Positions 1 to 56,797 of a stretch of 64,000 bases of DNA are shown here, piece after piece. The notes under the pieces are model-generated. The model was not told where the DNA came from. It was given only the letters and a program-made list of their open reading frames with translations, and made no database searches. The DNA lies in contig OX485803.1 in assembly GCA_950295325.1 (NCBI GenBank), positions 60,775,554-60,839,553 of the forward strand, in the 5' to 3' direction. The DNA comes from Polytrichum commune (taxonomy: Eukaryota > Streptophyta > Polytrichopsida > Polytrichales > Polytrichaceae). The position numbers and the translations under genes are program-made. How positions within the stretch are numbered: position 1 is the first letter of the stretch; every line of letters begins with the position of its first letter.

Positions 1-860
1 CCCATTGTGAGGATAAGAGCGAAGATGTTGTGTTTCCACCTTTCTCGAGGGAGGATTCGGTTTCCGCGTGTGGTATAGTGGAAACTGTGTCATCACGGAA
101 ACCGGGTCAAGCTGGTTTTGTAGACCCAAAACTTCCTCCACCTTTCCCCCCGTCAAAGGGGGTGGTATGCATCGGATACTTGAGTGGGACACCTTCTCGA
201 GGGAGGGCTGCCCCCATCCTAACACTAGTTTAAGGGAGTAGTAGTTAGAAGGAGGAAGTGGAGATAAGGAGACAACCCTAAGAAATCAATCCAAAGGGTG
301 AAATCCTGATGAACAACTACCAAGTCTCTCTGAGCATTCTAGCCTAAAAGACTAGAATTATTGTCCTTGGGACACGGTCGAAAATCTAGCGGATAGTGGA
401 AATACAGGTCAGATCCGCTACCTCTATCGTGGAAACCTTATCCCGGAAGTCATTACCCGTAATAAGGAATCTTAGAATGAGGTGTATATAGTTGTTATAC
501 TATGGATTCGGGACGCTGAGTCTATTGTGGTTACTACTCTAAGGTGGGAGCTTGTCCATATTTTGTGTTGTGTTCCCTACCTCGGTCCACTACCGGAAAG
601 GCGGAAATATCCGTGCCATACTTTCCGTAATATCCCGGATTTCTTAATCCGATTTGTGTTGTCTTAGTTTATGGTGTTTCTTGTGTGTGTGTTAGTGAAA
701 GATTTCCTCCCTCTGTGTTGTGAACGACCGCAGGTTCTTCGTAGGAACGAACTTGGCGCGGCTGTGACGTTTTACGCGTTTATCAGGTTAATTTAATGAA
801 TACGTCATCACCGTGCTACGACAAAACCCTCAACATGGGCCGGATTGTGCTTATCTACTG
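1..860. other. Unclassified non-coding segment, possibly retroelement-derived
   Basis: No protein of recognisable family is encoded here. The stretch is richer in GC and CpG than the AT-rich DNA that follows and contains short internal repeats, for example TTCTCGAGGGAGG near 44 and again near 194. That composition and lack of coding potential resemble a long terminal repeat or internal non-coding part of an LTR retrotransposon. I see no convincing TG...CA ends or primer-binding site, so this stays a guess. Confidence 0.2.
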
Positions 861-2055
861 GATAATGAACAACTCCAATTAGTGTGTGTTTATTATTTGG
901 AATTGCCCGGTGAACTATCATCTTACTCAAGATTTTAGTTTTTTACTAACAAGCTTTCACTAGGTTGTTCAGTCACTATAGAACATAAACAAATTTTCTT
1001 GGTAAATATCACATTCTCATCAAATAATTATGCCCTTGCATACCTCCATATACTAACACACATTGATTGGGATAATCAGTGCAATGACTTCTTAAAATCT
1101 ATATAACATGTAAATTATGGTGTAATCGTCATATTGATTTCAGTTTGGGACTCTTGTGATGAGTCATGACCAAAATTGCAATCGTGGTGCCCATCATCAC
1201 AAGAATTCATGAAATTGGCGTCAATCCATGAAAGGCTAATTCTCTTCACTAAACTTTCCCCTTGGGAACATCAGGACCTAAAATTGGGCCTTGTCACTCT
1301 AAATGTGACAAGATTGGGTCCTAAAAAAGTTGATAACGTTGAACCCGACTAAAGGCTTAATGCTTAAGAATCAGTCTGGTGCTCAAGCCGGCCCAAGGCC
1401 ATGTATAAAGTTGCCCTACTTTGGGGCTTCTAATGCTCATTCCAAGGTCAAATCAATGTAAGAAAAAAAAGTACGAGCAATTATATAAGTGACTACCTTT
1501 TCCCTTTTGGTAATGTTGGTGGGGGACTGGCTCAAACATATGAATGTTTTGTCTATTTAGTGTGGGTTACCATTAGGAGTTACATGATGCTATAACATTT
1601 TATTGAGAGTATCGTGTTTTAACCCATACAACACAAGTAGTTAGTATACACACCAAAAAATATGACATAACTTAGTTGGTAAAAAGTTATATTTTATGTA
1701 AAAAGTTATAGCAACACGTAACTCCAAATGGTAACCCATACTAATTAGACAAAATAGTGTAGTACTTGCCCCAAAGCTCAATAGGTACATTAAGCTTCAT
1801 CGAGGTCTTGTAAGTTCTTGATTCTCAATTTGGTTAGCCCCGGGTTACAATGACGAAGTGTCTTCTTCCAAGTTTTGGGTTGGTCTTGGTTCCCAAGCAC
1901 AAGAGGGAATTGATGTACCCAAGTATAATTCTCATCCATCCAAATTAAGAACATGTCATGTGTAGGGTTGTGGTTCACCTTATTCTAATGTCAAGATGAT
2001 TAAAAATAGATTTATTCATAATATACAATAAGGTAAAAGAAAAAGAAAAGAAAAA
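861..2055. other. AT-rich intergenic DNA, nothing recognised
   Basis: Only short ORFs with no family resemblance. No paired terminal repeats or RNA gene noticed. Confidence 0.3.
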
Positions 2056-2168
2056 CTAACGTCGGGTAATCCAACGTAAATTTGAGTCCATTGGCCCTAC
2101 CATGCTCCAGAGTCTCCTTGATGTAGGGTGGGGTTTACTACCTACCTTGCTGTGGGTATGCTCTTGTT
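2056..2168 (-). repeat. SINE-A type 3' tail, lying directly 3' of a LINE remnant
   Basis: Read on the - strand this matches the last ~110 bp of the SINE-A copies at 23308-23574 and 34085-34338: the GTAGTAAACCCCACC core, then GGGCCAATGGACTCAAATTTACG and the terminal AACGT/GACGTT segment. The tRNA-like head is absent. It starts about 55 bp downstream of the end of the LINE protein remnant on the same strand, separated by a TACG/TGTG simple repeat. It could be a 5'-truncated SINE, or the LINE's own 3' UTR tail, from which the SINE family would have acquired its end. Confidence 0.6.
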
Positions 2169-2199
2169 TGTGTGTGTGTATGTATGTACGTATGTACAT

Positions 2200-3085
2200 A
2201 TTTTGGTATATGTTTACTATGTGGGGGGGCAATATTGGTTCTTGTTTATTGTTGAGTTTTCTCTTATTCAATACTAGGTATATGAGATATTTGATGGCTA
2301 TTTGGTGGATGGTTTTCATTTTATTCTATTTTATTAGTGATGTGGGGATATGTAGGTTCTCAAGGAGTCCTATGCTTCTTGTGTGAATGGCTCCCCTTAC
2401 TCTTGCGATGATAACTATGAGGGGTCTAATATTTTAGCCTTGTGCTCTTATTGCATCTACTAGCGGGTTGTATTTGTCTTCTTTTGTTTGTATGGCTTGG
2501 TCAAGGAATATATCATGCACAAAGGTGAATTCAATGAGTTGGATGGTGAGGACCAGTGTAGGTATTAGTTGACCATTTTGTTCATATGCAGTGCCTTGTA
2601 TGTAAACATTATATGGTCTTTGTTTTGCGAGGCATTCACATCGTGCAGTGCTGCATATGTTAGTATCCAAGGTGAGATGGTGTTGTCTTTGTGGTTGCCA
2701 TGTTGGTCACTGTCATTAATGAGTGTGAGGTGCTTAGTGCATACATTTGATTTTAGTAGGTTGGTGAGTTGGTGGGCATCGGCTTTGTGACTTGCAATTC
2801 TTAGGCCTTTAAGAATTTATTTGTTGCATAGAGAGAGTAAGTGCGGCCAAGTATCTATGTCATTAATTTGGCATAATGTGCAATTGGGGTTGGTGTGTGT
2901 GGGTGTGGGGAAAATAGTTTTTTTCTATGATTGCCCATGTATTGGGCGAATTGGAACTTGAGGAGTTGTGTTTTTTGAACAATAAGGTCATTTGTAAAGT
3001 GCATGACATTATTTAACAAGTTGTAGAGGGTGAGTGGGGCCAAGACTCTGTTAGGTAGTATTCAGGATCTATTTCATGGTTATTA
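2200..3085 (-). mobile_element. LINE (non-LTR retrotransposon) C-terminal remnant, LINE-1 type
   Basis: Broken - strand coding pieces read in order across stops and frame changes. First comes a stretch with PLTLYNLLNNVMHFTNDLI and FAQYMGNH (3043-2855). Next is a segment with LLSLCNK and KGLRIASHKADAHQ. Then comes IEFTFVHDIFLDQAIQ followed by KEDKYNPLVDAI (about 2560-2440). The last piece is MKTIHQIAIKYLIYLVLNKR (from 2319). The same order of blocks is found at 22.0-22.7 kb. The E-F-T...K-x-x-K-Y block followed by a glycine-rich strand is reminiscent of a PD-(D/E)XK-type nuclease placed after a reverse transcriptase, but that is inference. All frames carry stops, so the copy is dead. Confidence 0.6.
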
Positions 3086-3583
3086 TTTGAGCAGAGCATT
3101 TGCAACTTGATAAACTCGGGTGAAGCATTGTCATTGATATTATTTTAATGGAATGGTTGATAGCAACAACATAATGTTATGTGGCAAAAGAGAGGATTGA
3201 AATCACGAGTTTTGGAAGAATCTTCATAAAAATTTGTTTTTAATTTTTGGACTGAGGGTGGCATCACCCTCCTTTGTTAGGATAAGTTATTAACACTTTC
3301 TTTTATTTGAAGATTCAAAGAAGATCCATGATTTAGGCCAAGGTGGCATCCTCCACGTTCATTATGATGAGTTGGTGTCACCTCTTGCTATTCACAATCT
3401 AAAAGAAGGCCCATGATTTAAGCTATACTTATTAAATATGGAAACCCCTAAAATGCCTTTACTATACAAATACATTCATATACACCCTACTTAGAGGGTA
3501 AAGATTCCCTTAAATCACAAAGTTACATCATTGATGAGTATATTGTTTAAAATTAATAATTGGAAGAACAAGAAATACGCACA

Positions 3584-3591
3584 TATGCAAT
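3584..3591. repeat. hAT target-site duplication, left copy
   Basis: TATGCAAT, an 8-bp direct repeat identical to 5447-5454, immediately outside the hAT terminus. Confidence 0.9.
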
Positions 3592-5446
3592 CAGTGTATA
3601 TGTTTGACAAAGTTTTTGCAAGTTTTTCTCTTTTCACACGCAAAAACTTGCACAAAATAAAAATGCACGTCAATTGGCACGCACAATTTAGAAATTGACA
3701 CGTATTGTGACTTGTGAAGAAAAAAACCACACGTCAATTGACACACTAGAAATTGAAATGACACATATTACTTGAGTACTATAAAGTGCAGCTCAAGTAT
3801 CTGGAAAACATAACCCATAACAATAGGAGAACTTCCTACACTCACTCACATACTTAAGTTCAACTTTGCTCTTGCAATTTCCTTTGTAACCGGGAGCTAA
3901 GACGATGATTGGAGAGCGAGACTAACTAGGAACATGGCGAGGCAAATGTTTGTATCACCGTGGTGCTTGCACATCCTCCACTGCATATGAGTTTTTTCTT
4001 GCTTCCAACCAATGTGAGTTTTTCTTGCTTTCAACCAAAGTTGTTTTGAGCAATTCCCTTTGAATCGCAAATCTCCATTGTTGAAAGCATTCGAATCCCT
4101 TTGAGCTTTCTTGGAGCTGGAGAGGCTTCTTATTGCAAAAATGACGCAGAAGTGGCACAAAGATCAGCGCCTGCTTTCGGTTAGGATTGATTGTAGTATA
4201 CTTTGTTCCATAGTGAATTGTTTTGTTGGGATAATTAACCTGTAATTATGAAATTGTGATTGTGTGGTTGCTTTCCACTTCCCCTGCCTCTTTGGAAACA
4301 CCTGGAACCAATTAATTCCCAACGATATTGGAATTATTCAGAGATGAAGAACCACATTGGTATGAGATTATGTGTTCTTTCAAATTTCATTCTTATTTGA
4401 ACTTGCTTGTGGATGTTTTACAAGAGTTAAAAAATTTGAATATCAAATTTTAGTATGATATGGTTGATATCACAACTATTAGTGCAACCATCGATATCAC
4501 TATTTCAATTTTATCACGTCATTTTTATCCAGGAATGGACCTATGTTTGGTCGTACAAGCAAGAATTTGGGAAAATTCTTAAGGGAATCTGCAGAAAATC
4601 TTCAATTGAGTTATGAAAATAATACAAGAGATCGTATTATTCATGCATTGGCAACTGATGGGCCCAATGAACTACAACAATGCGTATTGTTGGGTGCATC
4701 TTATGTGCAAAGAGTTGTTCATGCTTTGAACGATCGTTTCCTAGACCTTCCAATATTCAATGCGGCCAAACTTTTCAGCCTTCGTAATTATCCAAGCGAT
4801 GATAGTGACCGAATCACAAATACCGAATTGTGGCTCGAAAGGATATTGTTGAAGTTTCAATACACTGAAGAAGAGAGTGACATGTGTAAGGGAGAACTCT
4901 TGGAATTTACGGAAACACTTTCACATGAGTGTGAGAACAAAACGATATTTGAGGCTTGGCGCATATGTGGTAGCAATTTGGAATGGCATACAACTTGGCC
5001 TAAACTTATGCAACTTTGGCAAAAAATTATGCTCATTCCATCAAGTATAGCTATCTGTGAGAGAGGATTTTCCAAACAAAATGCAATCAAAAGCCACTTG
5101 CGCAATAAGTTGAACTTGAAGACCCTTGATGCTCTTATGCGGGTTTCTCTTTGTGGGCTTGAAGTGGATGCAATGGATTGGGCTACCATCTTCAACATTT
5201 GGAGAAACATGCGAGACCGAAGGATACTTACGCTCGATTGATAGTTTTTTTTTGTTACAAATCAAGTTTGTTTTTTATTATTCAAAATATTAGTTTTCTA
5301 AAATATTGTGTAAGTCAAAAATTGAGGTGACATTTTGGAATAAAATGTAGATGTCAATTGACATTCATTTTTGTTTTTGAAAACGTCACGTGACACTTTG
5401 GATTTGAGGTTGAACGTCACATGAAATTTGTCAAACATACACACTG
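3592..5446 (+). mobile_element. Internally deleted hAT DNA transposon
   Basis: The element is bounded by terminal inverted repeats beginning CAGTGTATATGTTTGACAAA on the left and, as reverse complement, CAGTGTGTATGTTTGACAAA on the right. It is flanked by a perfect 8-bp target duplication, which is diagnostic of the hAT superfamily. Subterminal DNA is rich in short repeats of the TGTCAATTGACGTG type, as expected for transposase-binding subterminal arrays. At 1,855 bp it is shorter than an autonomous hAT element, and the interior encodes only the C-terminal part of a transposase. The MITE at 14555-14877 is its deletion derivative. Confidence 0.92.
4335..5241 (+). pseudogene. hAT transposase, C-terminal part, frame-broken
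   Basis: The longest open stretch (4543-5241, 232 aa) carries the hAT C-terminal dimerisation domain: WPKLMQLWQKIMLIPSSIA, ERGFSKQN, then LRNKLNLKTLDALMRVSL. It resembles plant hAT transposases related to ZNF862-like proteins. Coding similarity continues upstream in another frame with HSYLNLLVDVLQELKNLN, an in-frame TAG at about 4452, then DMVDITTISATIDITISIL. A frameshift is needed near 4535 to join GMD/GPMFGR. The amino-terminal BED finger and most of the RNase H-like core are missing, so it cannot be an active transposase. The start at 4543 is simply the first ATG after the break. Confidence 0.85.
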
Positions 5447-10030: not shown

Positions 10031-10397
10031 TAGTGGAGGTGCTTATCTCCGATCAAGACCCCATTGGCAATTTATAGGGTACGAGAATTTTGATCAGGTT
10101 GGGACTGGATTTCGATCATGCCAGAACCAATAATGTCATGGCACATGTCCTGGTTTTGAGTGCTAAAGTGAGGAGGAATGAGTGGTTATGACACACTCTA
10201 GACATTGGTAACATGTTTGGGCCAACTTTTGGCTTCAAAAGTTTGCAATATTTTCAATTAAAAGAAATAAAATTACCAACAAATTTGAAATCCTCCTAAT
10301 TTATATCATCCTACATGGGAAAACTTGCACCACCTGATACTTCTCCAAATTTGGCACAAAAATTGTTAAGCGATCAGTTATGGGCACCTCTACTCTA
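10031..10397. mobile_element. ~370-bp TIR element (copy 1), interrupted at its end by SINE-B
   Basis: The left end is TAGTGGAGGTGC and the right end GGGCACCTCTA, an imperfect inverted repeat. The interior, with the marker CACTCTAGACATTGGTAA, matches 56427-56785 along its whole length and 55668-55800 in part. I see no clean target duplication. The SINE-B insertion uses the last bases of this element (CCTCTACTCTA) as its own target duplication, so this element is older than the SINE. Confidence 0.65.
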
Positions 10398-10765
10398 GAT
10401 AGATAGAAACTCCGGTCCCTTTTTAGCAAGGGGCCAGCGTGAATAAAGTGTCCGTTCGTAATGTCAATGAACCGCGATGCCCACTGGACAAGGGGTCATT
10501 GGGGCAATACTACTCTCCCCTTTCGAGGATGGGCACTATAGTGACACACTATACTAGTTCCTAGCTAGCCACTAGTGCCTTGAAGATACCGGACATGGTA
10601 TCCCCCCAAAGGGCTTTGAGGTACCCATACAACAAGGTCCAAGGACCCCCCACCATAGTTGGGTGGACTAAGGTGGTGAGCACCACGCCGGCATGGGGAA
10701 TAGAACCCACAACCTCCTCATTGGGGGCCATGAGCCCTAACCACCAAGCCAAGGCCCGTGGTGCC
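10398..10765 (-). mobile_element. SINE-B, full length, tRNA-headed
   Basis: A 368-bp unit flanked by the 11-bp direct repeat CCTCTACTCTA (10387-10397 and 10766-10776). On the - strand it begins with a tRNA-like head: an A-box-like TTGGCTTGGTGGTTAGGG and a B-box GGTTCTATTCC (10707-10697; consensus GGTTCGANTCC). It then continues into a body starting near 10536 with TAGTGCCCATCCTCGAAAGG and ends in a (TATC)n tail at 10398. Head, body, simple-repeat tail and target duplication are the hallmarks of a SINE mobilised by a LINE. The body is found alone at 55117-55263, and in diverged form at the 3' end of LINE-2 at 21858-21985. Confidence 0.85.
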
Positions 10766-10784
10766 CCTCTACTCTAACCGTATA

Positions 10785-12058: not shown

Positions 12059-12400
12059 TCCTTTTGCGGGCGGGCTGCCGTAATTTTGGTTTGACGGATG
12101 GAGGCTCGAGTAGAGTGTAGAGTATGTTGTTGGTACATTTTGTAAGTACCCGTCATCGATTGAGGCCAAAAGCTTACACCTATAGTTTACAATTTGGAGT
12201 TACATATTGGTTATGGCATTTTACCCCAACTTTTTCTACCTACGTAACATAAATAGATAGTGCATGCACATCAAGGAACATAATGTAAGTGGTTTCGTAG
12301 GATATGACGTTCTTAGTAAGAGTCTATAGCGATTTTTAACTCCCCCCATGTGGTAAACCACAGTAGTAGGTGTAAAACGTGTGACTTAGCCTTGCTTGAA

Positions 12401-12423
12401 CCCTAAACCCTAAACCCTAAACC
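12401..12423. repeat. Interstitial telomere-type repeat
   Basis: Three units of CCCTAAA followed by CC. This is the Arabidopsis-type plant telomere unit. At this length it is either a telo-box-like motif or a scar of double-strand break repair, not a chromosome end. Confidence 0.85.
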
Positions 12424-16860: not shown

Positions 16861-18415
16861 AGTTTAAATAGTGTGGGCTACAACGACTTTTGTTTATCTA
16901 TACTCACATGTAAGTACTGAAAGAAAATGTTCCAAGTTCCAACACCATCACTTGATACAACCTTTTTTTTTGTTGATGTAGTCCAACCTTTCACTTCGAG
17001 TGCTCTAAGAATTAGTGTGGGATTAGCATGAATTAGTGTGAGCCACATTAATGATCACAGCTATGAAATTTGGTGTAATTGTACATGTAATGTATTGTTA
17101 TTTTGAAGAACTCTAAGTGAATGAAACTGGAATATGGGTATTCAAACATTATTAGTATGAGTTGTCACTCTAATTCTCATGGTTTTGATAGTTAGAACAA
17201 CATCAAACCTACATGACCAAGTCATGGCTCCTTGGCCATCACCTTCATAAATTCCTATGAATTTATTGTGGGCTCCAAGATTCTTGTGAATGAACTCAGC
17301 TTTCTCATCTTATTTGTGGATCGACTCAAATTTAGGGCTTGCAAATCAAAGTTGTATTCTATAGGTGGAGGGAAAGTAACCATTTTAGACACTTCTACCT
17401 TGAACAACCGAATCCTTACACCACCATTTGTGTTGTTTAGGCCCCAAAAAATTGTCGACAATTCCATATTACTTAGTGTTTTTAACACATTTCTTGATGC
17501 ATGTGTGGGAAGTTGAAATGCCCATGCAAGGGTTGAGAAAATATGACATTTCTTATTTACTAAGCATGTATGATCATATCCTCAAAACTATGGAGAGGTC
17601 GGACTGTTCCAATGAGGTAGATGGGGGTTAACTTGGTTAGCTTCCTTAATTGGACACCTATTTTTGGTTCTTAATCAACAGTAAAATCATTTTAATTCAG
17701 CGGGTGTGTAATACATGGTGATTTAGCCGTCGCATTGATGATACTTGGGTTAGTCACCTTTGCAAAAGTGAAACTACACCCACCATCCTCCATAACGAGG
17801 AGTGCTATTCACCGAGTTATGACATGTTTGATTTTGTGCGCTTGAGGTGGGCAAATTAGGAGGCGCTATGTGGCTGTGAGGTGCCCACCAGCTTGTATTG
17901 TGGGCATTCTATAATGAAAAAACAATTCCGCAACATTTTATTTTACACGTGACCACTTTAGAGACATGACACAACCAATATTGGCTTTAAACTTGGTGTT
18001 TATTGACAAATGGCACGTGTAGAATCTGCTCACGATTTTGTCCACTTACAAAACATTGGATGATAAAAGAGTTCCCCCCCCCCCCCCCAAGAACACCACC
18101 ACATTGGGAAGTAGAGAATATTCGATTCAGGAGCCTAGATCGACACCTTCCTCAACTCCGATTTCAGCGATTTCAAATTCTTTGGTCATGTTTCGCAATT
18201 GCTAACCCGCTCACTCTTCTAATGCTCGAATCCATTGACTAAATGATTCCGCAAAGCTATAGGTGTCCACGCTAACCTCGTCTACCTCCTTACACCTACT
18301 CATCGAAAGTTCGATGGACTTGCAACTTCAAATTCTTATTCTCAAGGGTCAACCCACACACGTCCAAGACGCCTTGCGTCACGAGAGTAAGAGTTATGGG
18401 TGTCCTCCCTACTGC
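16861..18415. other. Intergenic DNA, nothing recognised
   Basis: Several ORFs under 100 codons without family resemblance. A run of 15 C at 18074-18088. Confidence 0.3.
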
Positions 18416-18498
18416 TATAAATGGCATTTCGTAGTTGACACATCTACATGTAGATGTCCCTATATATGTACATATATAACTACGAAATGCCATTTATA
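18416..18498. repeat. Perfect 21-bp-arm hairpin element
   Basis: The arms 18416-18436 and 18478-18498 are exact reverse complements over 21 bp. The arm core is AATGGCATTTCGTAGTT. The 41-bp loop itself holds two palindromes, ACATCTACATGTAGATGT and TATATATGTACATATATA. It has the form of a very small foldback MITE. I cannot assign a superfamily from the flanks. Confidence 0.85.
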
Positions 18499-18588
18499 AC
18501 ACACTTATTGACATTTCCTAGTCCTCCCTTAGGACATGGCGAGGAATTTCAAACGGTTGACAAACTAGCTAGCTAGGGCTCAACAAAA

Positions 18589-18770
18589 CAGTGTCCCGGA
18601 AGATTTTGGGTCAATACCCTAGCCAGTTGCTTCCATGGTCCAACCGATTACATGTTGACATCTTTTGGTTTTTCTTTATTAATTTGGAGGTATATCCATC
18701 CTCTAAATCCCTCTAGCTAGAACGATTTGGTTGTCTTCTCAACCGGTTCATGTGTATATATACTAGAAAG
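18589..18770 (-). mobile_element. Third copy of the 225-bp hAT-like MITE family (inverted)
   Basis: It begins CAGTGTCCCGGAAG. Read on the - strand it shares AAAGATGTCAACATGTAA and CCCAAAATCTTCCGGGACACTG with 7851-8075. It also lacks the 323-bp insert, giving a second empty site. The other end is diverged. Confidence 0.55.
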
Positions 18771-19582
18771 CGCTCGATTCTCTCCCTTCGTTGATGTCGG
18801 TTTTGATTGTGTTGACTTTCATGTGCAATCGGAGAGAACATAAGGGGCGGTGGCAAATGAGGAATGAGATCACATTCCTCCCGCCTCATGCTCTTCGTTG
18901 ACAAGAGGTGGCATCCGCATATTCTAAAGAGGAGGCCGGCCACACGCGTTCAAAAACGACGGTTTCAAGACGGGGTTTGGTAAGCCATGGTAAGAGAATT
19001 CAAGCCTTCACGTGTTCCTAACTTTGAGGAGCCTAATTTCAAGGTTGGTCCCTCTTCTTCTTTTCTGGCTAGAACCGTCCCGTTCTCAAATCCAACTGGA
19101 ATTGGAAGCCTTGCAAAACTGTCGTCTTGGATTGGAGTTGACAATGGATGTATACACCCAATAACAAGAGGCACCAACCTTGAAACCAAGTAATTGCTAT
19201 TAAAATTTCTAAATATGGTTTTTGCACCAATCCGTAGATGACAATTCGTAATAATCCACACATAAACAACTATATGATGGTATCTTTTCAAAGAAAGAGT
19301 TTGCAATCAAAGACTTTGATAGTTTATAGTTGCTTGTTGAAATGTTCACAGTAATAGTATGAGTGCTCCCCATAGATGGGGAATCCCGGAATTAAAGGAG
19401 AGTTATGCTCATGTGATACATGGTCCCATGGAACACAGCCAAGGCATTGTGTAACATTGTGTCATTTCGACCTAGGAATGCCTATCTTTGACACTTGTAA
19501 AACACCATTTTAAAGTATAAGGCGCCCTTCTAGCCATAACCACACTCTTGGGAAAATTTGAATCACCATTCCCGTGAGGCTA
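18771..19582. other. Intergenic DNA, nothing recognised
   Basis: No supportable gene. Frames at 18965-19306 and 18987-19193 overlap on opposite strands and neither has a recognised domain. Confidence 0.3.
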
Positions 19583-19588
19583 TAAGGG

Positions 19589-20054
19589 CCGCTTTATGCA
19601 CAAACCAAGAGCCATGACCATGAAAGTTTGAGGGTCCTTGAAAATCATCCAAATGCCATGTTCTAGGAGGTAGACATCCATCTTTGTAATTGATGGTCCC
19701 TCAAGTTTAGTATAAAGTGAAAGTGGACCATGTTGAGGGACTGCAACATATGTCCGGGTTCAAGTTCCACCCTGACAATGTAATATTTCCTAGAGGCCAA
19801 TGACAATCTACTTGATTTCCACGGCCCTCGGTTTTGTATTAGACCCACCTATTGTTGATGGGCCTAATGCAATATCCAACAGATCATGAAACATCATCCA
19901 CTTGCTTTCATGTAAGATGATATGTACATTTTTCATCCATTTGAGTTCTTTGGTGCCCTGTGCCTTTGAGATTTAGTGTCAAGTGACCAATCACATAATT
20001 TGTATATCATGGATCAAGGGCCCTCAAACTCTAGAGTAAAGCGACCCTTAAGGC
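19589..20054. mobile_element. Diverged Tourist-like element of the 40-kb family
   Basis: The ends GGGCCGCTTTATGC and AAAGCGACCC are inverted repeats, flanked by TAA and TTA. The interior shares AACCAAGAGCCATGACCATG and the order of blocks with 11336-11924 and 40191-40695. Non-coding. Confidence 0.7.
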
Positions 20055-20819
20055 CGTCCATAAGCTCTACCAAAAGGCAACCCAAGGTTTAGCATCCCTA
20101 TGGTATGTCGTGTTGAAATATATCACAAGGTTGTCTTAATCACAATAAAGGCTTGAGTGGCAAATAGTGGTCACACGGGTCCAATAAAGGTGTTTATGTA
20201 GTTTAGGGTTTAGGCATGCAACCCCTATTGTAGACGGTTTCAACTCCACAAAGAATTTGGGCCATTGAATTGGCTTTGAAATTGTGTCACCTGGTTAGCA
20301 ACTACAATTGACAAAAATCTCCACGTCAAGTTTTAAAATCATCACAAAGTTGCAAGAATTACAAGTGTCCAAGGTGAAAAATAAATTTTGACCTCAAAAC
20401 TATCACATAGGTCCTTCCAATTATGTTCATTATTGAGCCTTGATTCTTGAATGATTGATGTATGATGTGCTCAAGATATGTTAGCCACACCAATGACTAT
20501 GAAAAGACACATGTTCCATTTGGGAGCTCCACCTTCTCATTTAGTGCGAGGAGTTCAAAATTTGATTGATTTAAAAACAACTAGTGAAAGCAAGGGCCAT
20601 GGGAGCTAGGGATATGGCTAGGAGAATTGAGTTAGGGACTAGAAGAAACAGAGAAAGAAAAGAAAAAAGGAACATCCATGTTTTTACATCAATGTGTGAT
20701 GTTTGCTCACCATCTACTACACATGACCGTACGTATGATCATTCCGGGTGGGGGGGGGGGGGGGGGGGGGAGGGGAGGTGGCTTGATACATGTTCTCACA
20801 AGTGGACCTTTTGTGATTG
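20055..20819. other. Intergenic DNA with a G21 tract
   Basis: No gene recognised. The longest homopolymer in the window, 21 G, is at 20750-20770. Confidence 0.3.
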
Positions 20820-20822
20820 TTA

Positions 20823-21216
20823 GAGCATCCTCAATCGGTCTAGGTAAAGCTCACTGCAAACCAAAACCTATCTTTTGACTGACCTAAAATTAGAAACTGA
20901 AATTACCATCATTAGAAGCACACCTAAATAAACGTGAGATATTTCTCAAGAAAAAAGAATTGTAAAAATTTGACGTAGGTGAAATCCCTCATTGAAAACA
21001 CCACATTTTCAAAATTTAGAGGGAGTGCACCAAATCTTGCTTTAAAATGGAAAGATCCTCCCACACTCCCTCCAAATTTTTGACATTTAGAGGGAGTGTG
21101 GGAGGATCTGTCCATTTTAAGCAAGATTTGGTGCACTCCCTCTAAATTTTGAGCAATTTTAAGCAAGATAGGTCTTGGTTTGCAGTGAGCTTTACCTAGA
21201 CCGACTGAGGATACTC
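20823..21216. mobile_element. Foldback Tourist-like MITE, 394 bp, nearly a complete palindrome
   Basis: The ends GAGCATCCTCAATCGGTCTA and, reverse complemented, GAGTATCCTCAGTCGGTCTA are flanked by TTA (20820-20822 and 21217-21219). The inverted repeat continues inward. AAAATTTAGAGGGAGTGCAC on the left pairs with GTGCACTCCCTCTAAATTTT on the right, and GATCCTCCCACACTCCCT pairs with AGGGAGTGTGGGAGGATC at the centre. The termini of the GAGCAT(C)CTC type and the TWA duplication fit PIF/Harbinger. A transcript would form a hairpin close to 190 bp long. Confidence 0.9.
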
Positions 21217-21234
21217 TTAGTTATCTAGTATATG

Positions 21235-22006
21235 TTAGTTAATATAAACCACTAATAGACAATATAATCAATAAAGGATGGAAGGTAGACCCACTAATAG
21301 ACATCACGGCTGGTGCTAGGGCAACACACACACACACACCCCTTCTATGAAAAATACTTAAAATCCCCAAAATAAACATCAAACACACATTTGAGGAAAT
21401 CAATGTCATTGCCATACAACATGCCATGTCCATAATCCTACACAAAAGGAGAATAGAAAACCACGAACCACTACCAACATACACACAACCTACATAACAA
21501 CCCCAAATACCCACCAAAAAATAAATAATCAAGATTAAAAGAAAAATAATAAAATGCCAACAAGAGCCAAAGAATTGTTACAACTCACGGCAAGGGTTGA
21601 TGGCCATATGTTCCACCAAGTAAACTCACATAGCATATGCCAAATTACTTACATCACAATACAATGCTCGTAAGAGGCCATCAAGAACCGGTGTTAATAA
21701 CCCCCACATTTAAAGAACCACTAAGTAGCCCACTCGGAGACTACCACATGAAGAAACACAAAACACATACCCTTATAAACATCACAATCACATTAACATC
21801 ACCAATACAAAAATCATCCAATCACTAAGTTTCCATGGTCACCTTGGTTACCTTGGTTACTATAGTGCCCACCCCGAGAGGGGTTAGTAGTCTTGCACCA
21901 TTGTTATTATGCCCAATGGGCATAATACCAAGGGTGGGTCGAACGGGCATTTCAATCACGCTGATCCCATAAGGACGAGCTCTCTCTCTCTCTCTCTCTC
22001 TCTCGG
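21235..22006 (+). mobile_element. LINE-2 C-terminal remnant with 3' tail ending in (CT)n
   Basis: On the + strand, GWKVDPLIDITAGARAT (21276-21326) is followed, after a (CA)n slip and frame changes, by coding similarity to INIKHTFEEINVIAIQHAMS and IILHKRRIENHEPLP. This is the same final domain as LINE-1 but a distinct lineage. At 21858-21985 the non-coding tail (TATAGTGCCCACCCCGAGAG...AATCACGCTGATCCC) is a diverged version of the SINE-B body, and the element ends with about 12 CT units (21979-22004). The upstream part is missing or masked by the MITE at 20823-21216. Confidence 0.6.
21979..22004. repeat. (CT)n microsatellite
   Basis: About 12-13 CT repeats, probably the simple-repeat 3' tail of LINE-2, at the tail-to-tail junction with the - strand LINE-1 copy. 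Confidence 0.9.
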
Positions 22007-22007
22007 T

Positions 22008-23115
22008 TTAGTGTTTTATTTTTAGTCCAATGGGATCGGGGCTTGTTTCTTTTCTAGTTTTCTTTTGTTTAGAACAATGTGTGTTAGATTTTTTATGGCG
22101 ATCTACAAGAGTGTCTTCATTATTTTGTGGATTTTGAGGGTGGTATTTGGAGGTCTTGGAGGTGTTTGATGGTTGTTGTATGTATGCTCCACGTACGCCT
22201 GCTATGATGATGATGATGGGCAACAATGTTTCTCATCCAAGTTAGACTAGGATTGGGTGGAGGATAACATATTTACCTAATTTGCGGGTTGTGGTTTCTG
22301 CATGAAATCTATTGTTGCAATATGTGAATTCGAATATATGCACTTTGATATTTGGGCTAGGCGCAAAGGGTGGTTGGGTTGTAGGGGGGGCACCTATTAT
22401 GTGCAGTATGTCGAGCATGGCATATGCATCTTGGAGAATATCATGTGCATGGTAGTAGCCATGAGGGTACGGTGGTCTTAGGTATGTGGTCATTGAATTG
22501 TCGGTGTTTATGAGTGTGAAGCATTGTGTTGTAGGGTGGGCAAGTGGTGTGTTTGCAAGCATGTGTGCCGCTTTTATTATGTTTGCAGGTGCATAAATTG
22601 TTTATGTGCTTATTTGTGCAACATGATAGTATGTGGAGGCGGGTGTCATCTTGTTGGGTTGTACATAAGTTACATAGTGGTGAAATATCTTATTGAAATT
22701 TATTATTATTATTATTAATTTTGGGGGGTAAATTCCTAGGTATCTCCCATAGCATAATGTAAGGGTTTAGGTGATTTGCACATCAATTATCCCAAAGCTA
22801 TCCCAAAATAGGTTTGACTATTTGAGGTGGATGTCAGAGTTGGATAATTATTTGTTTATATAAGGGATAGTGTTTTTTACTTGAGAAATGGTGGCGTTTT
22901 CATTTTTGTTTTTTTTTGTTTTTTCATGTTTTTTTTTAATGCATCTTTTCAAGTTTCGGACTAATCCATCATGTTGTAGGGGGTTGGAGGGGTCGATGGG
23001 CAATATGGTGTTTGGTGTCCAATCATGTGAAATGCAGTGTCCAAGATATGTGGGGTTTTTGTTATTTTTCTGTCCAAGTATGTTTGTGTGTGCCCTAACT
23101 TTGCAAATGGTGATA
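22008..23115 (-). mobile_element. LINE-1 type remnant: end of reverse transcriptase plus C-terminal domain
   Basis: Reading on the - strand from about 23110, AKLGHTQTYLDRKITKTPHI and FHMIGHQTPYCP resemble the thumb region after a reverse transcriptase. Next come CFTLINTDNSMTTYLRPP (from 22530) and NIKVHIFEFTYCNNRF. The last piece contains IIAGVRGAYIQ (22226-22008) with a decayed NKRKL-type end. Block order is the same as at 2200-3085. Stops and frame changes throughout mark it as dead. Its 3' end abuts the (CT)n tail of LINE-2. Confidence 0.6.
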
Positions 23116-23307
23116 TTTATTTATTTATTTATTGGGGGGGGGGGGGAGGGGGTGGTAGAGACTTATTAGGTCATGTGCGCATTCCATGAACCATCACGAC
23201 CACTGAAACTAAATTAAAATTTGCACTGGATAGTGAAGGCCGTTGACGTAGAATTTTTTTGTGGAACCTAGTAGTTGCACATATTTTATGTTACATGGGT
23301 GCATGTC

Positions 23308-23574
23308 AAATCCAAGATGACCCTAAACTACCGGGTGATAGTGGAGAGGTACCCATTTCCGAGTGGAGTGGTTGGTGGTTCGAATCCTGCTATGAAATCT
23401 TCTCTCTACCTGACGAAAAAAACTAGCTAGGTAGGTAGGAAGCCAAGAGCCCAACCACTGGAAGGTAGGCAGTAAACCCTACCCTACACCAAAAGGATTT
23501 TTGAGAAGGGTAGGGCCAACATGCTCAAATTCACGTCGGATTGCCCAACGTTGATTATTTACTCTCTTTTTTAT
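23308..23574 (+). mobile_element. SINE-A, tRNA-headed, near full length
   Basis: On the + strand the head contains an A-box-like TAGTGGAGAGGTACC (23339) and a perfect B-box GGTTCGAATCC (23377-23387). The body has CTTCTCTCTACCTGACG, GTAGGAAGCCAAGAGCCC and GGCAGTAAACCCTACCC. It ends at CAACGTTGATTATTT with a T-rich tail. TGCATGTC flanks both sides (23300-23307 and 23575-23582), a short target duplication. The copy at 34085-34338 matches along its length. It is not a functional tRNA: there is no cloverleaf 3' half after the B-box. Confidence 0.85.
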
Positions 23575-23582
23575 TGCATGTC

Positions 23583-23950
23583 TAAGCTTTATTCAAAGAA
23601 CACACAATCACAATCTTGAAACTTACTCAAGCTCACAACAATTCATTGTAAAAGAGGGCATGGGAAGACCCAAGAAATGCATGTGTTGTGACCGAAAGGA
23701 GAGAGAAGCCTTTAAGAAAATAACAAGGAAGGGAGGACGGAAAGGAATGAGAGAAAGTGACCTCTAAGTATGTAGTTTTTTTTGCATTGATATGGGAATC
23801 TCCTTGGAAGCTTCTTTTTCAAAACAATTTTGGAGTATCGCTAAACCTTTTCACAAACAATGCACATTCTTCATCTACTATCAAATGAAGGTCTTGCGGC
23901 TTTAAAGTTAAAAACACGTGAAGTGTACTTATTGATGTTGATTCAACGAT

Positions 23951-23992
<42 letters not shown>

Positions 23993-24691
23993 CAATTGAT
24001 GTTCTTGAACGACTTGGTGAATCACATGTAAGCAATTTATTAGGTTCAAATTGGAAAAGATCATGATACATTAAAATTGCATAAGTATAAGTTGCGTATT
24101 TTGGTGTCTTTATTGCTTTCAACATGTGAAAAACATTGACCAATGGCACGCACCGCTTTACAACAAATTTGTGGTCAAGAAAAACACAAATCATAACCCC
24201 CTCTTAATTATTGAGTCTATTTTTTGGAGGGCCTCAAGTATATTTCACCTATTGCCACATAACATTATGAACAAAAATAATTTCATTTGGACATGGCTCA
24301 CTATTGATAGCAAATGTGATATAATAGAGGCAATACAACTTTATGTTAGACTTGATCTATGAATTTATAAATTTTGTGTAGGCAAGTGTGATTCCAATGT
24401 AGTTAAGATATTTAGACATGGACTATCGTAGTATCATAATGGACCCAACATTAATTATATTACCTGAGAATTTATAAATTTTTTTAACAATTAGTGTTGT
24501 AGACAAACCCCGTTTTTGTAAAAGAATTGTGAAAATGATGGAATATTTCATCTATCAAAATAGACACTTAAAAATAAATCAGTGACTAGCCTAAACTGCC
24601 ATGTGACTATAGTATTGAAATTTTTGTGAGCCCCGCAAAATTAACTTGAGAAGTGAACACAAAGTAGGGTAATAAAGTCAAGTTAGTCAAA
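23583..24691. other. Intergenic DNA with a compound microsatellite
   Basis: No gene seen. (CA)n followed by (TA)n lies at about 23950-23991. Confidence 0.35.
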
Positions 24692-26160
24692 CTAGAGCAT
24701 CCTCAAAAGCAACGTGAGGGGTGTATCAAGCCAATGGAAATGTGCATAGACTATACAAAAGAGCTTTCATTTTGAAGCGACTTTGGTAAAGCGAAGCCCC
24801 CGAAGTTGGACCATGTGGAAGGACTTGGGTATAAGGTCACGCATCTAGGTTAGGGCCAAATCCTTCCCTTAACTTATGGAAAATCATCCATCATGGATGA
24901 ACAAAGCTTGGGTGGGGTACCTCCGGTCATCTTTGAAACTACGTGGGAAAAAACGTAAGGTCCAACAAATGCATCAAGTACAAGTAGACCCCACAAAGCC
25001 ATTTGTCTCTTCTAGATAAGAATGTACATACCACTATCGGAGAACTTCCCCCTAGTTTGATATTGCGAGGTGAACATGCCAAAGTCATAGTCCACTTAAA
25101 GTTTGGGTTTCACAATACCTACCGCCGAAAGGCCAATAGTGAAAATAAGCGCCTTCATGGTTGGTTGCTCACTCGCCACGATTCAAGCTCGCCACATTAA
25201 CCTACAGTCTAAATATAGGTTAAGTTGACTCGAAATAATAATATCGGGCTATGTATTACAATGAGCATTTTGAACCTTCCCTCAGTAGGATCTATGAAGA
25301 CTTGCTCGTTAACTTACGTAGCCGCAATTAGTACAACCCAAAAAGTGATTATCCTAGTTCTTGCTAAACGCTACGGTAAGATTGGCAATCGTAGCCCTAT
25401 TTGAGGCAGGGAGTGCGTATCAAGTTGGTTAACCTAACCTTGACCACCTTGTTTTAGGGATGCCACCAAGAAGGGCAATCCCTTTGGCCTCCCCATTGAC
25501 CAACTGCTCGCAATTATAATGGATTATTGGCTCAAAATGCCACATTGGCCTCATGCACGTAGTACCTCAGAGGAGTCAACAATGAATTCTTCTTCAAGAT
25601 TTACATGGTTGTGCACTATGATTGATCAGTTGGTGAATCGTTGCAAGGAGCAATGAAGGGCTTGGGATATGAGGATAAGGCATATTAATTGAAGGTGTGT
25701 GTGGTGGGGGGGGGGGGGGGGAGGGGAGGGGGCCTTGTTGTTAGATCACATGCATCTCTCTTGTACAGTCATGTCTATTGAAACTACTTAAACTATATAG
25801 AATGCATTGGACAATCAAGGTTGTCAACACACTACAAATGTGTAGCTAGTAGTTGCATTTCTTATGTTCTCTTCGGTTATTATGCGGCTATTTGCATGTC
25901 TTTGTTGTTTCTCTTGAAACACGTACTCAAAATCTTGAAATTTAGTAGAGCGCATTTTACAAAATGTATACAATCTTGAGCAAGGGAAAACCCTATGGAT
26001 GTATAAGACATGTTGGAGAGCGAGATATAATCACAAGGAAGGAGGGAGGGTAACCTAGATTGTACTTGTTATTTCTCAACTTTATGCATGCATCTCTTCC
26101 AATGATGTGGGACCTGTGTATGTTTATAGATGCCGTTAAGAGGGGTCCACTATTGGAAGC
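24692..26160. other. Intergenic DNA, nothing recognised
   Basis: AGAGCATCCTCAAAAGCAA at 24692 resembles one end of the 20.8-kb MITE class, but I found no partner end. G16 at 25706-25721. Confidence 0.25.
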
Positions 26161-26170
26161 AAAGTGAGAT

Positions 26171-26875
26171 ACAACATCAATTATGGTATTTAGTGTCACC
26201 AACCCAATAGTGTCACTTATCACATCTAGAGGCCTTTGAATGTGTTACACAGATTGCCACACCTAGTGCCAAAACTAATATTAAAGTACGCCAAAATGAG
26301 AATGAGTTTGGAAATTTTATCAACTTGGTTGTATCAATGAAACTAGTTTTACATGTTTATCTCAATTGTAATTATCATAACATGACAATGACATATTTAA
26401 TCAATATGTCAGTTCAATGTATAAACTATAAATCTTTATATCTTCAAAAAAAATAGTACCTCAAGTATCATTCGTGTTAAAAAAAAATGGAGATGTCTCA
26501 CACATGTGGTAGTTTGACTTTAACTAGTCACCTCACTCCTTCACTCCTCGTCTCACACTATTTGCACCAAAGATTAACTTTGTCAAAAAATTCATCTATT
26601 TCAAATAATCATTTATCATGACAAATAATGGGCTTAACATTGTTCAAATTCATAACAATGTTTTGTGGGACTGACAATATTCCACATAATATTCAGATTG
26701 AATGTGGGAATATTCAAGAATATTATGTGGAATATTGTCAACCCACAAAACATTGTTATGGATAGGAATAATGCCATGTGACGTCAACAATTAATGAACA
26801 TGTTATTTGTAGAGTTATAGAAATTTAGTGTAATTGTTTATAAATAATGGACATGACACCAAATATCATATCAAT
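26171..26875. repeat. Possible TIR element containing a hairpin insertion
   Basis: TATGGTATTTAGTGTCAC near 26183 and the inverse ATGACACCAAATATCATA near 26853 resemble the terminal repeats of 28029-28510. The ends are weak and no target duplication is visible. Confidence 0.35.
26651..26760. repeat. 110-bp foldback with ~45-bp arms
   Basis: CATAACAATGTTTTGTGGG...ACAATATTCCACATAATATTC on the left is repeated in inverse on the right, ending CCCACAAAACATTGTTATG, with one or two mismatches. It is a short foldback MITE. Confidence 0.8.
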
Positions 26876-26915
26876 TTACTACTACTACTACCCATAGTAC
26901 ACGGCTCACTCACAT

Positions 26916-34084: not shown

Positions 34085-34338
34085 AATAACCAACGTCGAG
34101 TACTCTAGCGTGAATTTGAGCCCGTTGGCTCTTACATGCTCAAGAATCCTCTTGGTGCATGGTGGGGTTTACTGCCTACCTTGCGGTGGGTGGGCTCTTG
34201 GCTTCCTACCTACCGTGCTAGTTTGTTTTTTCCGTCAAGTAGAGAGAAGATTTCACAGCGGGAATCGAACCGCCAACCACTCCGTTTGGAGATGGGTACC
34301 TCTCCACTATCACCCGGCAGTTTAGAATCATCTAGGAC
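34085..34338 (-). mobile_element. SINE-A, full length, 16-bp TSD
   Basis: Flanked by a perfect 16-bp repeat, ATGTTTTGCACTCATA, at 34069-34084 and 34339-34354. On the - strand the head carries an A-box-like GTGATAGTGGAGAGGTACC and a perfect B-box GGTTCGATTCC (34271-34261). The body matches 23308-23574 block for block and ends ...CGACGTTGGTTATTT. The length of about 254 bp, the RNA polymerase III promoter and the duplication establish it as a SINE. Confidence 0.93.
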
Positions 34339-47175: not shown

Positions 47176-48026
47176 CTTAGCTTGCATCTGAGTTGACCAC
47201 TGAGAGCAATCTGAAAGTGAAGTCTCTTGTAGTTTTCGTCATAATAACAACAATAGAAACAGTTGATGATAGTGAGCTATCTTGCGCCACCTCACCATTC
47301 AGTTCTTTTCAGACTTTCCGTGGCTGCAAAGCTGAGCAGTATTGTTGCAGGAAATCGAAATAATATATAAAAGTTATAAGCATGAAATGCTACATTGCAA
47401 TCATAAGTTTGTATTTGTCCTGATGGCACAAGCGGGAGTTACTTTAGAAATTCCTTTATCAGCATTGGTTGTTATTGAGCTATTTTTGTGATGTCTGGAG
47501 TACATGAGTAGCTTAACATAGAACCTATTGAATACCAAACAATATATTGTACAAATTTAATAATATAGTTTTAATAGTTCTGGTGGGATACTTTCTGGAG
47601 TGATATAGGATTTTATAAATCTGGAACTGACCACTGACATGCATATATTGCCACTGGTGAGGGTTGCTATAGCTGCAAACCTTCTAAAATGAGAAGAACA
47701 TCAGGAATCTAACCTGAGTTATAATTCTGAGGGTTTTCTTTTTGTTGTTTTAGTGTCTTCATGATTGATGTTTGTGTACTTCATCCTATTTATGTCTTTG
47801 ATTCTTTGTCTTGGGTTAGCTTGTGCGTTTCCTTGGGGGATGCAAGAGTGTCATGTCTCATGTTTCATTTGGTCTCCAGGTGGGCATTACAGTGTGTTTT
47901 GAAGTTGTGGAAGGAACTACTAAGATCTGTATTCTGACAGTTTCTTTGTGGCATAGCAGGTGGCTGGTTGATCATTTGGGTGCAAGAGACACACATTGAG
48001 TTTGGCCTATTGCCATTGTGTCAAAA

Positions 48027-50386
48027 ATGATTCTAGTCATGGCAGAGAAGAATCAGCCTATGTTCCGGGACTTTCTGGGTCTGGGGCACACAGATGAAGT
48101 CAAGCAAGTTGGATACACATCTTCAGATGTTATCCTTGCGTCAAGAACTAGCCCTGAATTCGACTCTGAAGGAGATGGCGAAACCACTGCCACTCGAGCA
48201 TCATCAGGAACAAGTGGGCGCTTCAAAACTAGCTCTGTCCCTGGTGGTCTTGCCTCCCCTTCTTTCTGTCTTGCTCTGCCGAGCTCGTCTGACCCTGGCT
48301 CTGGTAAGTCGTCCTTTATATCAACTGTTTATCACTAGAGTTCTGTAGTGATGTCCCTGCCTTCTGTTGAGTGCTCTGGTGAGTTCTGTGGTGTTTAGTG
48401 TTTGTTGTGAACAGGAGGAGCTAGTATCTAGTTAGGCAAGATGTCTTTGATTATGACCAAGATGTTTATGGTAATGTTCACTGATACATAGTTATCATTC
48501 TATGTGCAGTTGGTTGGCAGCAGGCCCAAACAGCATCAATCCAGCATCATGGATATAGAAGTGAATTCTACAAGCTGGATGTGGAAGTCCCTAAAACTGC
48601 AAAGAAACGTGACTCTCCTCCAAATCGGGATACTTTGCAGGAACGTCTTGTGGAAGTCCTTGAATGTTCGCCACGGTCACAAAAGGTGACTACTCTTAGA
48701 GAATCCTTGTCTTGGTCAGCAATTGGAAATCTGGTTGTCAGTATTCTTGCTTAAACTTTGGTGTTTCGGTTAACTTCTCTAGGAGTTACCAGATTCTTCT
48801 TCTTTGAACTTCAATCTCCCAAGCATGCGGAAGTTACCATATCGTTCTTATTTGCATGTATGGAATTTCAGGTAGCTCGGCATGAGTACAGTAGGCCTGA
48901 GAAACGAATTGAGCCTGGTGAGCTGGTGCCAACAAGTGATGATCTTCGTCTTTCTATGCAACCTCCACGAGCATCAAACAAGAGTCCTCCATGGTTTCAA
49001 CAAACCACAAAACCCGAAACACCACGGAGACACACAAAGAAACTGGATCATGCAAGACCTACACAAATCAATGCTGGGGTGGCTATGCGTGGTCTTAGCC
49101 ATTTGGGTGCTTGTGCGGAGAGAGCAGAAAAGGCAGAAAAGGCTTCAGCTACTATCTCACGAGAAAATATAACCTCATGTAGTCCTCAACTGGCTCAACC
49201 AGCAGCTGATGAAGGTTCACGAACTGGACTAAAAAATTCCATTTTAGCGGGGTTGCTGGACAATGCAGGTCTTCTTCATGATCCGAGCAATCCAACTCCT
49301 GCTGGGTCCAGTGGTGGTCCCCCTCCTAGTGGACGGCAGCAAAAGATGCCTTCTTGGAATGCAGGGTCTGATTCTATTCCACCATCAAGGTACTTGCTGG
49401 ATCCAGCTGAGAAAACCTCTGGCAAACCTTTATTGATTGAAATTTGTCCTAATAGCTATTTTATGTGTCGTTGCAATGTCCATGTAAGTGGAGTTCTGGA
49501 GGCTATATATCAGCACTGGCATGCGGTATTTGCCGCAGTGCTGTGGTCAGTGCTGCACTGTCAAAATTGCAGCTGATGTATGGGAGCAGTCTAGTCATCA
49601 TTGTCGTAACTTGTTTGTACATGTGAACTTGACATATACCTTGTAAACCAGCCATGTGGGTTTTAACTTCATGGATTTGTTCAATGCAGTCGTGAAGCTC
49701 CTCCTGCTAGTAGACAGCTGACCATTTTCTACGGAGGTCAAGCTCATGTATTTGACGATGTTCCTCCTGACAGGGTGAGAATCATGATTTTTGATTATTT
49801 TCTGTCATTACACTTATCACATTGAAACCAACCCTATTTGACTGGAAACCTCATTACTATAGTATATGTATGCAAGTCGTGCAAAGGCAGCAAGGCTTAT
49901 GACAAGGAAGGTTCTCTATGTGCTTGAGGGTTTATCTAATTAGACTAATGATATACACTCAGGCTGTAATGATTATTTGATTGGGTTAGGGTGTCAATGT
50001 CAGTAAGACCTCACTGCAATGCATGTTTGAGGAGCATACAGTGCACAATGGGTGACAACAATGTTGTGTTATGTTGCCAAGGAACAGAAAGCTGAGGAGG
50101 TTCTTCTTATTGATTGTTTTTTTACTAATTTCTTCTCACATGTAAACAGGCAGATGCAATTATGGCATTGGCAGGCTCAAATGGGAGGTCCTGGTCAACA
50201 ACCTACTCACCTCGACCCAATGCAAGGGCCACAAATTCGTTTAGTGATGGCTCTTTGTCAGCACTAGAACGGGAGAAAGACAAGTCTGTACAAAGCCGAG
50301 GAGGGAGCCTAGCCGTATCATCTGAGGTACAAACATTGTTGTGTCGACAATCACAAAATGGTACCGGGTCAGGTCGCCCTACATGA
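48027..50386 (+). CDS. TIFY8: TIFY8-like transcriptional co-regulator, copy A
   Basis: Five coding exons: 48027-48303, 48510-48685, 48872-49389, 49690-49774 and 50150-50386. All introns are GT-AG and the phases join, giving 430 aa. The TIFY domain spans about residues 333-366 across exons 4 and 5: QLTIFYGGQAHVFDDVPPDR, then ADAIMALAGSNGRSWST, with the core TIFYGG at 335-340. The N-terminus carries PMFRDFLGLGH, like the FxDFLG motif I associate with TIFY8 proteins. No Jas motif, CCT domain or GATA finger follows, which argues against JAZ, PPD and ZML classes. TIFY proteins are nuclear; the domain mediates dimerisation and binding of adaptors such as NINJA (family knowledge). The start was chosen at ATG 48027, matching copy B; a second in-frame ATG four codons later is also plausible. 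The last exon stays open to TGA, ending TGSGRPT, conserved in copy B's displaced frame. Confidence 0.85.
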
Positions 50387-55092: not shown

Positions 55093-55116
55093 TGATAGTT
55101 TTTTCTCACTATTCAA

Positions 55117-55263
55117 GATAGATAGATAGATAGAAACTCCGGTCCCTTTTTAGCAAGGGGCCGGCGTGAATAAAGTGTCCGTTCGTAATGCCAATGACCC
55201 GATGCCCACTGGACAAGGGGACATTGAGGCAATACTACTCTCCCCTTTCGAGGATGGGCACTA
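55117..55263 (-). mobile_element. 147-bp SINE-B/LINE-2 tail insertion, 14-bp TSD
   Basis: Flanked by the perfect 14-bp repeat TTCTCACTATTCAA (55103-55116 and 55264-55277). On the - strand it starts TAGTGCCCATCCTCGAAAGG and ends in (TATC)n, about 90% identical to the body of the full SINE-B at 10398-10536. The tRNA head is missing, so it is a 5'-truncated copy made by target-primed reverse transcription. Confidence 0.9.
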
Positions 55264-55277
55264 TTCTCACTATTCAA

Positions 55278-56785: not shown

Positions 56786-56797
56786 CTCTACTATCTA

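Follow-up and report, generated by a model that had tools for sequence, protein, structure and literature searches.

A 125-nt tail probably common to a decayed LINE and a tRNA-type SINE, and a probable sister LINE with a similar partner, within 64 kb

LINE and SINE remnants in the window

The window (the whole 64-kb stretch of DNA that was analysed) holds three decayed LINE bodies, copies of two SINE types and a short insertion that consists of a SINE tail. The features used below are as follows, with strand in parentheses.

2052-2169 (-): LINE-1 tail, common to SINE-A by alignment
2233-2951 (-): LINE-1 body; CCHC at 2882-2826, EFT...KEDKY at 2532-2470, C-terminus to 2233
10387-10397 (no strand): left copy of the SINE-B target duplication, CCTCTACTCTA
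10398-10765 (-): full SINE-B; A box 10751-10741, B box 10707-10697, tail 10543-10410, (TATC)n end
10766-10776 (no strand): right copy of the SINE-B target duplication
21243-21488 (+): LINE-2, decayed C-terminal ORF remnant, from the Y of KX2KY, with in-frame stops
21489-21858 (+): A+C-rich stretch of LINE-2 from ORF remnant to tail; 3' UTR or unrelated sequence
21859-21983 (+): tail common to LINE-2 and SINE-B, from alignment and nhmmer
21980-22004 (+): (CT)12.5 terminal repeat
22034-22704 (-): second LINE copy, tail to tail with LINE-2; CCHC at 22674-22618, EFT...KLGKY at 22331-22269
22150-22034 (-): C-terminus of that second copy, frameshifted
23308-23574 (+): SINE-A copy 1; 8-bp exact duplication TGCATGTC, 10/11 when extended
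34085-34338 (-): SINE-A copy 2; 16-bp exact duplication
55117-55263 (-): tail-only copy of SINE-B (147 bp); 14-bp duplication at 55103-55116 and 55264-55277

SINE-B and its tail-only copy are real insertions, flanked by exact target duplications of 11 and 14 bp, respectively; they are the one full and the one partial SINE-B copy in the window. The 5' head of SINE-B carries Pol III boxes (SINE strand: A, TGGCTTGGTGG; B, GGTTCTATTCC, the latter deviating from GTTCRA), and the combination of A/B boxes with a target-site duplication is that of a tRNA-derived SINE; structural criteria for SINEs are given in the available part of PMC8825457. The boxes and the two target duplications fix the polarity of SINE-B. 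The tail-only copy is 95% identical to the SINE-B tail. Its start, TAGTGCCC, lies 4 nt within the tail common to the two SINE copies and LINE-2; the copy keeps the repeat end without the other end, and the repeat end is thus the 3' end. The flank at 10057-10397 has a paralogue at 56450-56790 (78%), the similarity ending at the SINE-B insertion point, and beyond CTCTACTCTA, which both have, the paralogue goes on with other sequence.

Ranked by A+C skew, the top three 600-bp stretches of the window, 21244-21843 (+; the most skewed), 22012-22611 (-) and 2167-2766 (-), are the three LINE bodies. The LINE-1 frame 2706-2215 matches LINE-2 at 21243-21473 (+) with 39% over 80 aligned positions (tblastn, 43.9 bits; matched part 2472-2233 on the minus strand), a score reached by none of 500 shuffles (maximum 23.5 bits), and it matches 22361-22034 (-) in three pieces, the best of 40.0 bits (maximum of 500 shuffles 23.1 bits; 0/500). 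Mismatches by codon position number 31, 24 and 51 of 77 between LINE-1 and LINE-2 (p 3e-5), and 16, 8 and 34 of 61-62 each between LINE-1 and 22035-22220 (p 1e-6). Translated homology and codon-position periodicity together show that the three skewed stretches are homologous coding sequences. When the LINE-1 frame was searched against six frames of the whole window, only LINE-1 itself, LINE-2 and the 22034-22704 copy were recovered at E ≤0.5; with other LINE fragments as queries there were a small number of stray matches (E 0.02-0.4). At the DNA level, none of 300 shuffles was as good as the match between the LINE-1 and 22034-22704 bodies, and the LINE-2 body is weakly similar to the other two (32 and 16 of 300 shuffles as good). 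In-frame stops occur in all three copies, and the 22034-22704 copy is also frameshifted.

By its translated sequence, LINE-2 carries the C-terminal coding remnant of a LINE, a status that follows from the protein comparison and not from the tail alone. It retains neither CCHC nor EFT, the CCHC having been lost by truncation; its region has no open frame of 150 codons, and a PDB search of 21235-21858 returned four unrelated rows (best E 0.5). Reverse transcriptase was absent in Pfam six-frame scans of 1-5000 and 17101-26902 (about 14.8 of the 64 kb; sub-threshold rows were PRIMA1, E 0.067, and CR_prot_dom_plant, E 0.018). Over the whole window, a scan for reverse transcriptase motifs found isolated single motifs only, and a reverse transcriptase probe found matches of at most 20 bits (E 4.3 or worse). 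This is expected if LINE-2 is 5'-truncated, and a LINE fragment is not thereby excluded; a first reading, drawn from the missing reverse transcriptase, that LINE-2 is not a LINE was reversed by the composition and the translated comparisons. Several scans for a target duplication of LINE-2 found none. A MITE-like element (20822-21217) lies immediately left of LINE-2; its ends, 20822-20874 and 21165-21217, are inverted copies of each other (94%), and a further inverted repeat lies inside it.

A tail common to LINE-2, SINE-B and the tail-only copy

An earlier note on this DNA had proposed that the body of SINE-B resembles the tail of LINE-2 and that the 147-bp insertion at 55117 carries the same tail, and both proposals are borne out. 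Homology links the segment 21859-21983 (+) with the 147-bp insertion and with 10543-10410 (minus strand), the 3' part of SINE-B: with the CT run excluded, the local alignment scores are 80 against SINE-B (2000 dinucleotide shuffles: mean 21.1, maximum 47) and 75 against the 147-bp copy (mean 21.6, maximum 43). Pairwise alignments of 21858-21985, the interval named in that note, with the two SINE copies lie far above shuffled sequence; the interval was right, but the common part runs from 21859 to about 21983 and ends before the CT run. The note had also placed this tail at the end of a + strand LINE remnant, and this agrees with the protein match upstream on that strand (0/500 shuffles).

The full SINE-B as an nhmmer query over the whole window recovered 21855-21971 (+) with E 5.4e-10. 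Identity is about 75% over 62-69 nt in the 5' part of the LINE-2 tail. On its own, the 3' part reaches a score of 34 with SINE-B, aligned as CGAACGGGCATTTCAATCACGCTGATCCC versus CGAACGGACACTTTATTCACGCTGGCCCC (0/2000 shuffles as high), and of 30 with the 147-bp copy (4/2000). A simple pyrimidine repeat follows the tail in LINE-2, SINE-B and the 147-bp copy, with (CT)12.5 in the position that (TATC)n has in the SINE copies. Similarity is limited to the block starting at 21859; homology of LINE-2 and SINE-B outside the tail was considered and rejected, none of four tests of SINE-B against the LINE-2 surroundings having done better than chance (444-528 of 1000 shuffles scored as well), and the A+C-rich stretch 21489-21858 has no SINE-B homology. 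Only three tails of the SINE-B type are among the matches listed for the 64 kb (three of ten rows, E < 1e-35), the other seven rows having E 0.00038 or worse. Rfam and tRNA scans found nothing. A DNA pattern (one per set) had no match in viral_contigs and genome_contigs, nor had the LINE-1 domain in phages and viral_contigs.

Folded singly, all three tails show the same elements: a closing stem, two hairpins (the second of them long) and, right before the repeat, a 3' hairpin. The first hairpin has a GNRA-type loop, GAGA or GAAA. The consensus fold has 41 pairs, with 94.1% of cells paired and six two-sided compensated pairs, and it was equalled by 1/500 shuffles for pairing, 1/500 for two-sided changes and 5/500 for further pair types, in a test on three sequences, two of them nearly identical, from which the structure itself was derived. 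For a single hairpin derived from LINE-2, 13 of 18 pairs are kept (reached in 3746 and 712 of 20,000 trials under two null models) and its compensations were reached in 4725 and 450 of 20,000; sliding the hairpin partner by 1-6 columns kept at most 8 pairs. Covariation is hence weak for the single hairpin and stronger for the whole tail. Folding energy z-scores are -3.25 (LINE-2), -1.21 (SINE-B) and -3.20 (147-bp copy). The tails lack the feature of the stringent plant L1 ME1 tail (ZmSINE2/LINE1-1), a UCU loop with CGAG on the 3' flank of the hairpin: the LINE-2 tail has CGAG after the 3' hairpin stem but a CAUAA loop, and SINE-B reads CGGAG.

Two probable pairs and the likely endonuclease type of the LINE lineage

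LINE-1 consists of an A+C-rich coding body followed by a SINE-type tail, the same order as in LINE-2, with about 60 nt between ORF remnant and tail versus 370 nt in LINE-2. The earlier note had treated the LINE families as separate and unrelated, which did not hold: LINE-1 and LINE-2 share a C-terminal protein domain and so are sister families of one lineage. Judged by their sequences, LINE-1/SINE-A and LINE-2/SINE-B look like two pairs within that lineage. Among nine cross comparisons of SINE-A-type with SINE-B-type tails, four were matched by 5-27 of 1000 shuffles and five were at chance. The remnants 21243-22004 (+) and 22005-22704 (-), both of this lineage, meet with their tail ends at a single (CT)n/(GA)n repeat, and SINE-A copy 1 is near the far end of the latter; the arrangement may be accidental, or it may reflect a preference for repeats or for LINE tails.

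Two of the bodies carry a CCHC motif (LINE-1, CTLCQINDIDTWPHLLSLC; 22034-22704 copy, CNLCTTQQDDTRLHILSCC) with the spacing CX2CX9HX4C, followed at a distance of 294 nt and 287 nt, respectively, by EFT...KX2KY (EFTFVHDIFLDQAIQTKEDKY, KEDKY; EFTYCNNRFHAETTTRKLGKY, KLGKY). In six frames of the window, CX2CX9HX4C and EFT-then-KX2KY each occur at two places only, both in these bodies, the patterns having been fitted to the two motifs seen, so that the counts are not an independent test; a first CCHC pattern with a longer spacing, 7-9 residues before T, occurred nowhere in the window. The PD position of the putative PD-(D/E)XK core reads RPY and LDI. In the parts of PMC5678591 available to us, LINEs with a restriction-like endonuclease (RLE) have the order reverse transcriptase, CCHC knuckle (CX2-3CX7-8HX4C), RLE, and the catalytic lysine of the RLE is the first K of KX2KY. 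The lineage resembles the R2 group of RLE LINEs (R2, R4, NeSL, HERO, Utopia) and Dualen/RandI, as far as described there and in the accessible text of PMC4640811, which covers the RLE clades and Dualen, in that a putative CCHC knuckle precedes a domain with E and KX2KY. It differs in that CX2CX9HX4C is one residue longer than the spacing given in PMC5678591 and in that reverse transcriptase is not seen here.

The top Foldseek match of an AF2 model of the LINE-1 domain (pLDDT 40.7) is the R2 protein 9dou (E 0.028, probability 0.80); after R2 come mostly viral cap-snatching endonucleases, which share the PD-(D/E)XK fold, and at least three further R2 chains are among the best 50 of 172 matches. 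R2 as top match was not repeated with the model of the 22034-22704 copy (pLDDT 44.4), for which R2 is not among the matches listed and none is better than E 2.2 (best 40 rows). No Foldseek match reached 0.001 for either model. Pfam searches with nine fragments of the domain gave no family above the cut-off (best sub-threshold: Nodulin_late, E 0.0053; StbA_N, E 0.13), and PDB sequence searches gave unrelated proteins (best E 0.27, 0.46 and 0.27). Motif order, KX2KY and the low-confidence fold match make it likely that the LINE lineage is of the RLE class and R2-like, an old kind of LINE; with no match at 0.001, and with a second model that lacks R2, we grade this as likely only.

Origin of the tail and relation to known LINE/SINE pairs

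Going by order, strand and the parallel with LINE-1, the ORF remnant at 21243-21488 is the probable owner of the 125-nt tail. The account that we favour, with a probability of roughly 0.6, is that LINE-2 is a 5'-truncated, decayed LINE that owned this tail, that SINE-B was copied by the LINE-2 family through its homologous tail, that LINE-1 and SINE-A form an equivalent pair, and that the lineage has an R2-type layout. The last 125 nt of LINE-2 (about 21243-22004, +) and the pyrimidine repeat would be the RNA tail that its reverse transcriptase recognized. SINE-B, a tRNA-derived SINE, carries the homologous tail, and it was probably through this tail that the LINE-2 family, or a family closely related to it as a sister, copied SINE-B; SINE-B had probably taken over the tail to hijack the LINE copying enzyme. 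Target-primed reverse transcription would begin at the terminal repeat, and the 147-bp insertion would result from the same process, halted at the 5' edge of the tail. The simplest account, and one already known, would be that the LINE enzyme copies whatever RNA bears the tail.

The main rival is that 21859-22004 is a separate, tail-only insertion of a 5'-truncated SINE-B-like element or LINE that lies by chance beside an unrelated LINE fragment. The homology does set in abruptly at 21859, at most 4 nt from the start of the tail-only copy, which itself attests that such insertions occur; 370 nt upstream of the tail are unexplained, and a 9-nt tandem repeat (21836-21860) adjoins the tail edge. 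The 21859 edge, however, has no target duplication (best score 4, also the commonest score at 300 random places), strand and order are the same as in LINE-1, and just three tails of this type are among the matches listed for the 64 kb. We regard a separate insertion as unlikely, though as the most serious competitor of the tail's belonging to LINE-2.

SINE families can have 3' domains in common, and the tail might be that of a further SINE family with the same 3' domain as SINE-B, no LINE being involved. The Angio-domain is mentioned in the available part of PMC9033089. Against this, three A/B-box patterns had no match on the + strand of 20801-21858, and the sequence upstream includes a LINE ORF remnant that points the same way, which makes an origin from a second SINE improbable. 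An origin of the tail from the LINE at 22034-22704, on the opposite strand, is more improbable still. In that copy, and nearly so in LINE-1, coding homology stops 30 nt short of the repeat, and the two are also similar in how ORF end, dinucleotide repeat and 125-nt block are spaced. The polarity speaks against it: by the A/B boxes of SINE-B and by the repeat end of the 147-bp copy, which is fixed, the 3' end of the tail lies at (CT)n, so that the tail reads on the + strand, contrary to that LINE. Chance similarity or a low-complexity effect, for which nothing speaks beyond the common simple repeat, is refuted by the score of 80 with the repeat excluded.

If the tail is that of LINE-2, it may be set beside a small number of known cases. 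In the accessible portion of a 2013 review (PMC3747384), 58 SINEs have a partner LINE, and tail pairs on record in flowering plants are few, namely three. Pairs with stringent-type tails include tobacco TS with RTE-1_Stu and maize ZmSINE2/3 with LINE1-1_ZM (PMC3747384, PMC2774510; excerpts), ZmSINE2 and ZmSINE3 being paired with LINE1-1 in PMC2774510. As far as these sources describe them, LINE-2/SINE-B is like the stringent plant pairs in its tRNA-type head, LINE-homologous tail, tail hairpins and terminal simple repeat. It differs in its tail of about 125 nt, 75% alike in the better half, in its terminal repeats, (TATC)n and (CT)n instead of (A)n, (T)n or (TTG)n, and in a partner LINE that looks RLE-type, where the stringent plant pairs have L1 or RTE.

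EhLINE, the partner of EhSINE in Entamoeba, is RLE-type. Table 1 of PMC3747384, in the portion available, includes the Entamoeba EhLINE/EhSINE pair and the Chlamydomonas pairs of RandI with SINEX-1 and -2, which LINE-2/SINE-B would resemble in that a SINE tail derives from a LINE of a deep-branching endonuclease type. The promoter is listed there as unknown for EhSINE and SINEX, whereas SINE-B has a tRNA-type promoter, and, unlike in those systems as listed, two SINE/LINE pairs of one lineage would here lie within 64 kb. Among the literature matches listed, none of the titles or abstract beginnings names this LINE/SINE pair.

If the account is true, an R2-type lineage with parallel LINE-SINE pairs would represent a class absent from the land-plant LINEs given in the available part of a 2022 review, which are L1 and RTE only (PMC9033089). 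An R2-type enzyme would, if the lineage is RLE-type, join the machines that move tRNA-SINEs. Two pairs of one RLE-motif LINE lineage in 64 kb would also allow study of the co-divergence of LINE and parasite tails. The broader proposal, that an RLE LINE lineage in a plant-like genome split into at least two families with diverged, structured tails, each with its own tail-matched tRNA-SINE parasite, is tentative and less probable than the account favoured above. A plant-like host is suggested by the MITE-like elements, and the comparison with plants would hold only for such a host.

Elsewhere in the window, an open frame of 252 codons (4483-5241, +) includes a hAT C-terminal dimerisation domain, recognized with E 6.9e-5 and 23 bits (cut-off 21.4). 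A short AACCCTA repeat of 3.6 copies (12399-12423), internal to the window, has a telomere-type unit. A large local duplication links 47178-51092 with 59715-63712 (71-75% identity in two pieces) and includes matching open frames, without a Pfam domain, at 48755-49576 and 61426-61968.
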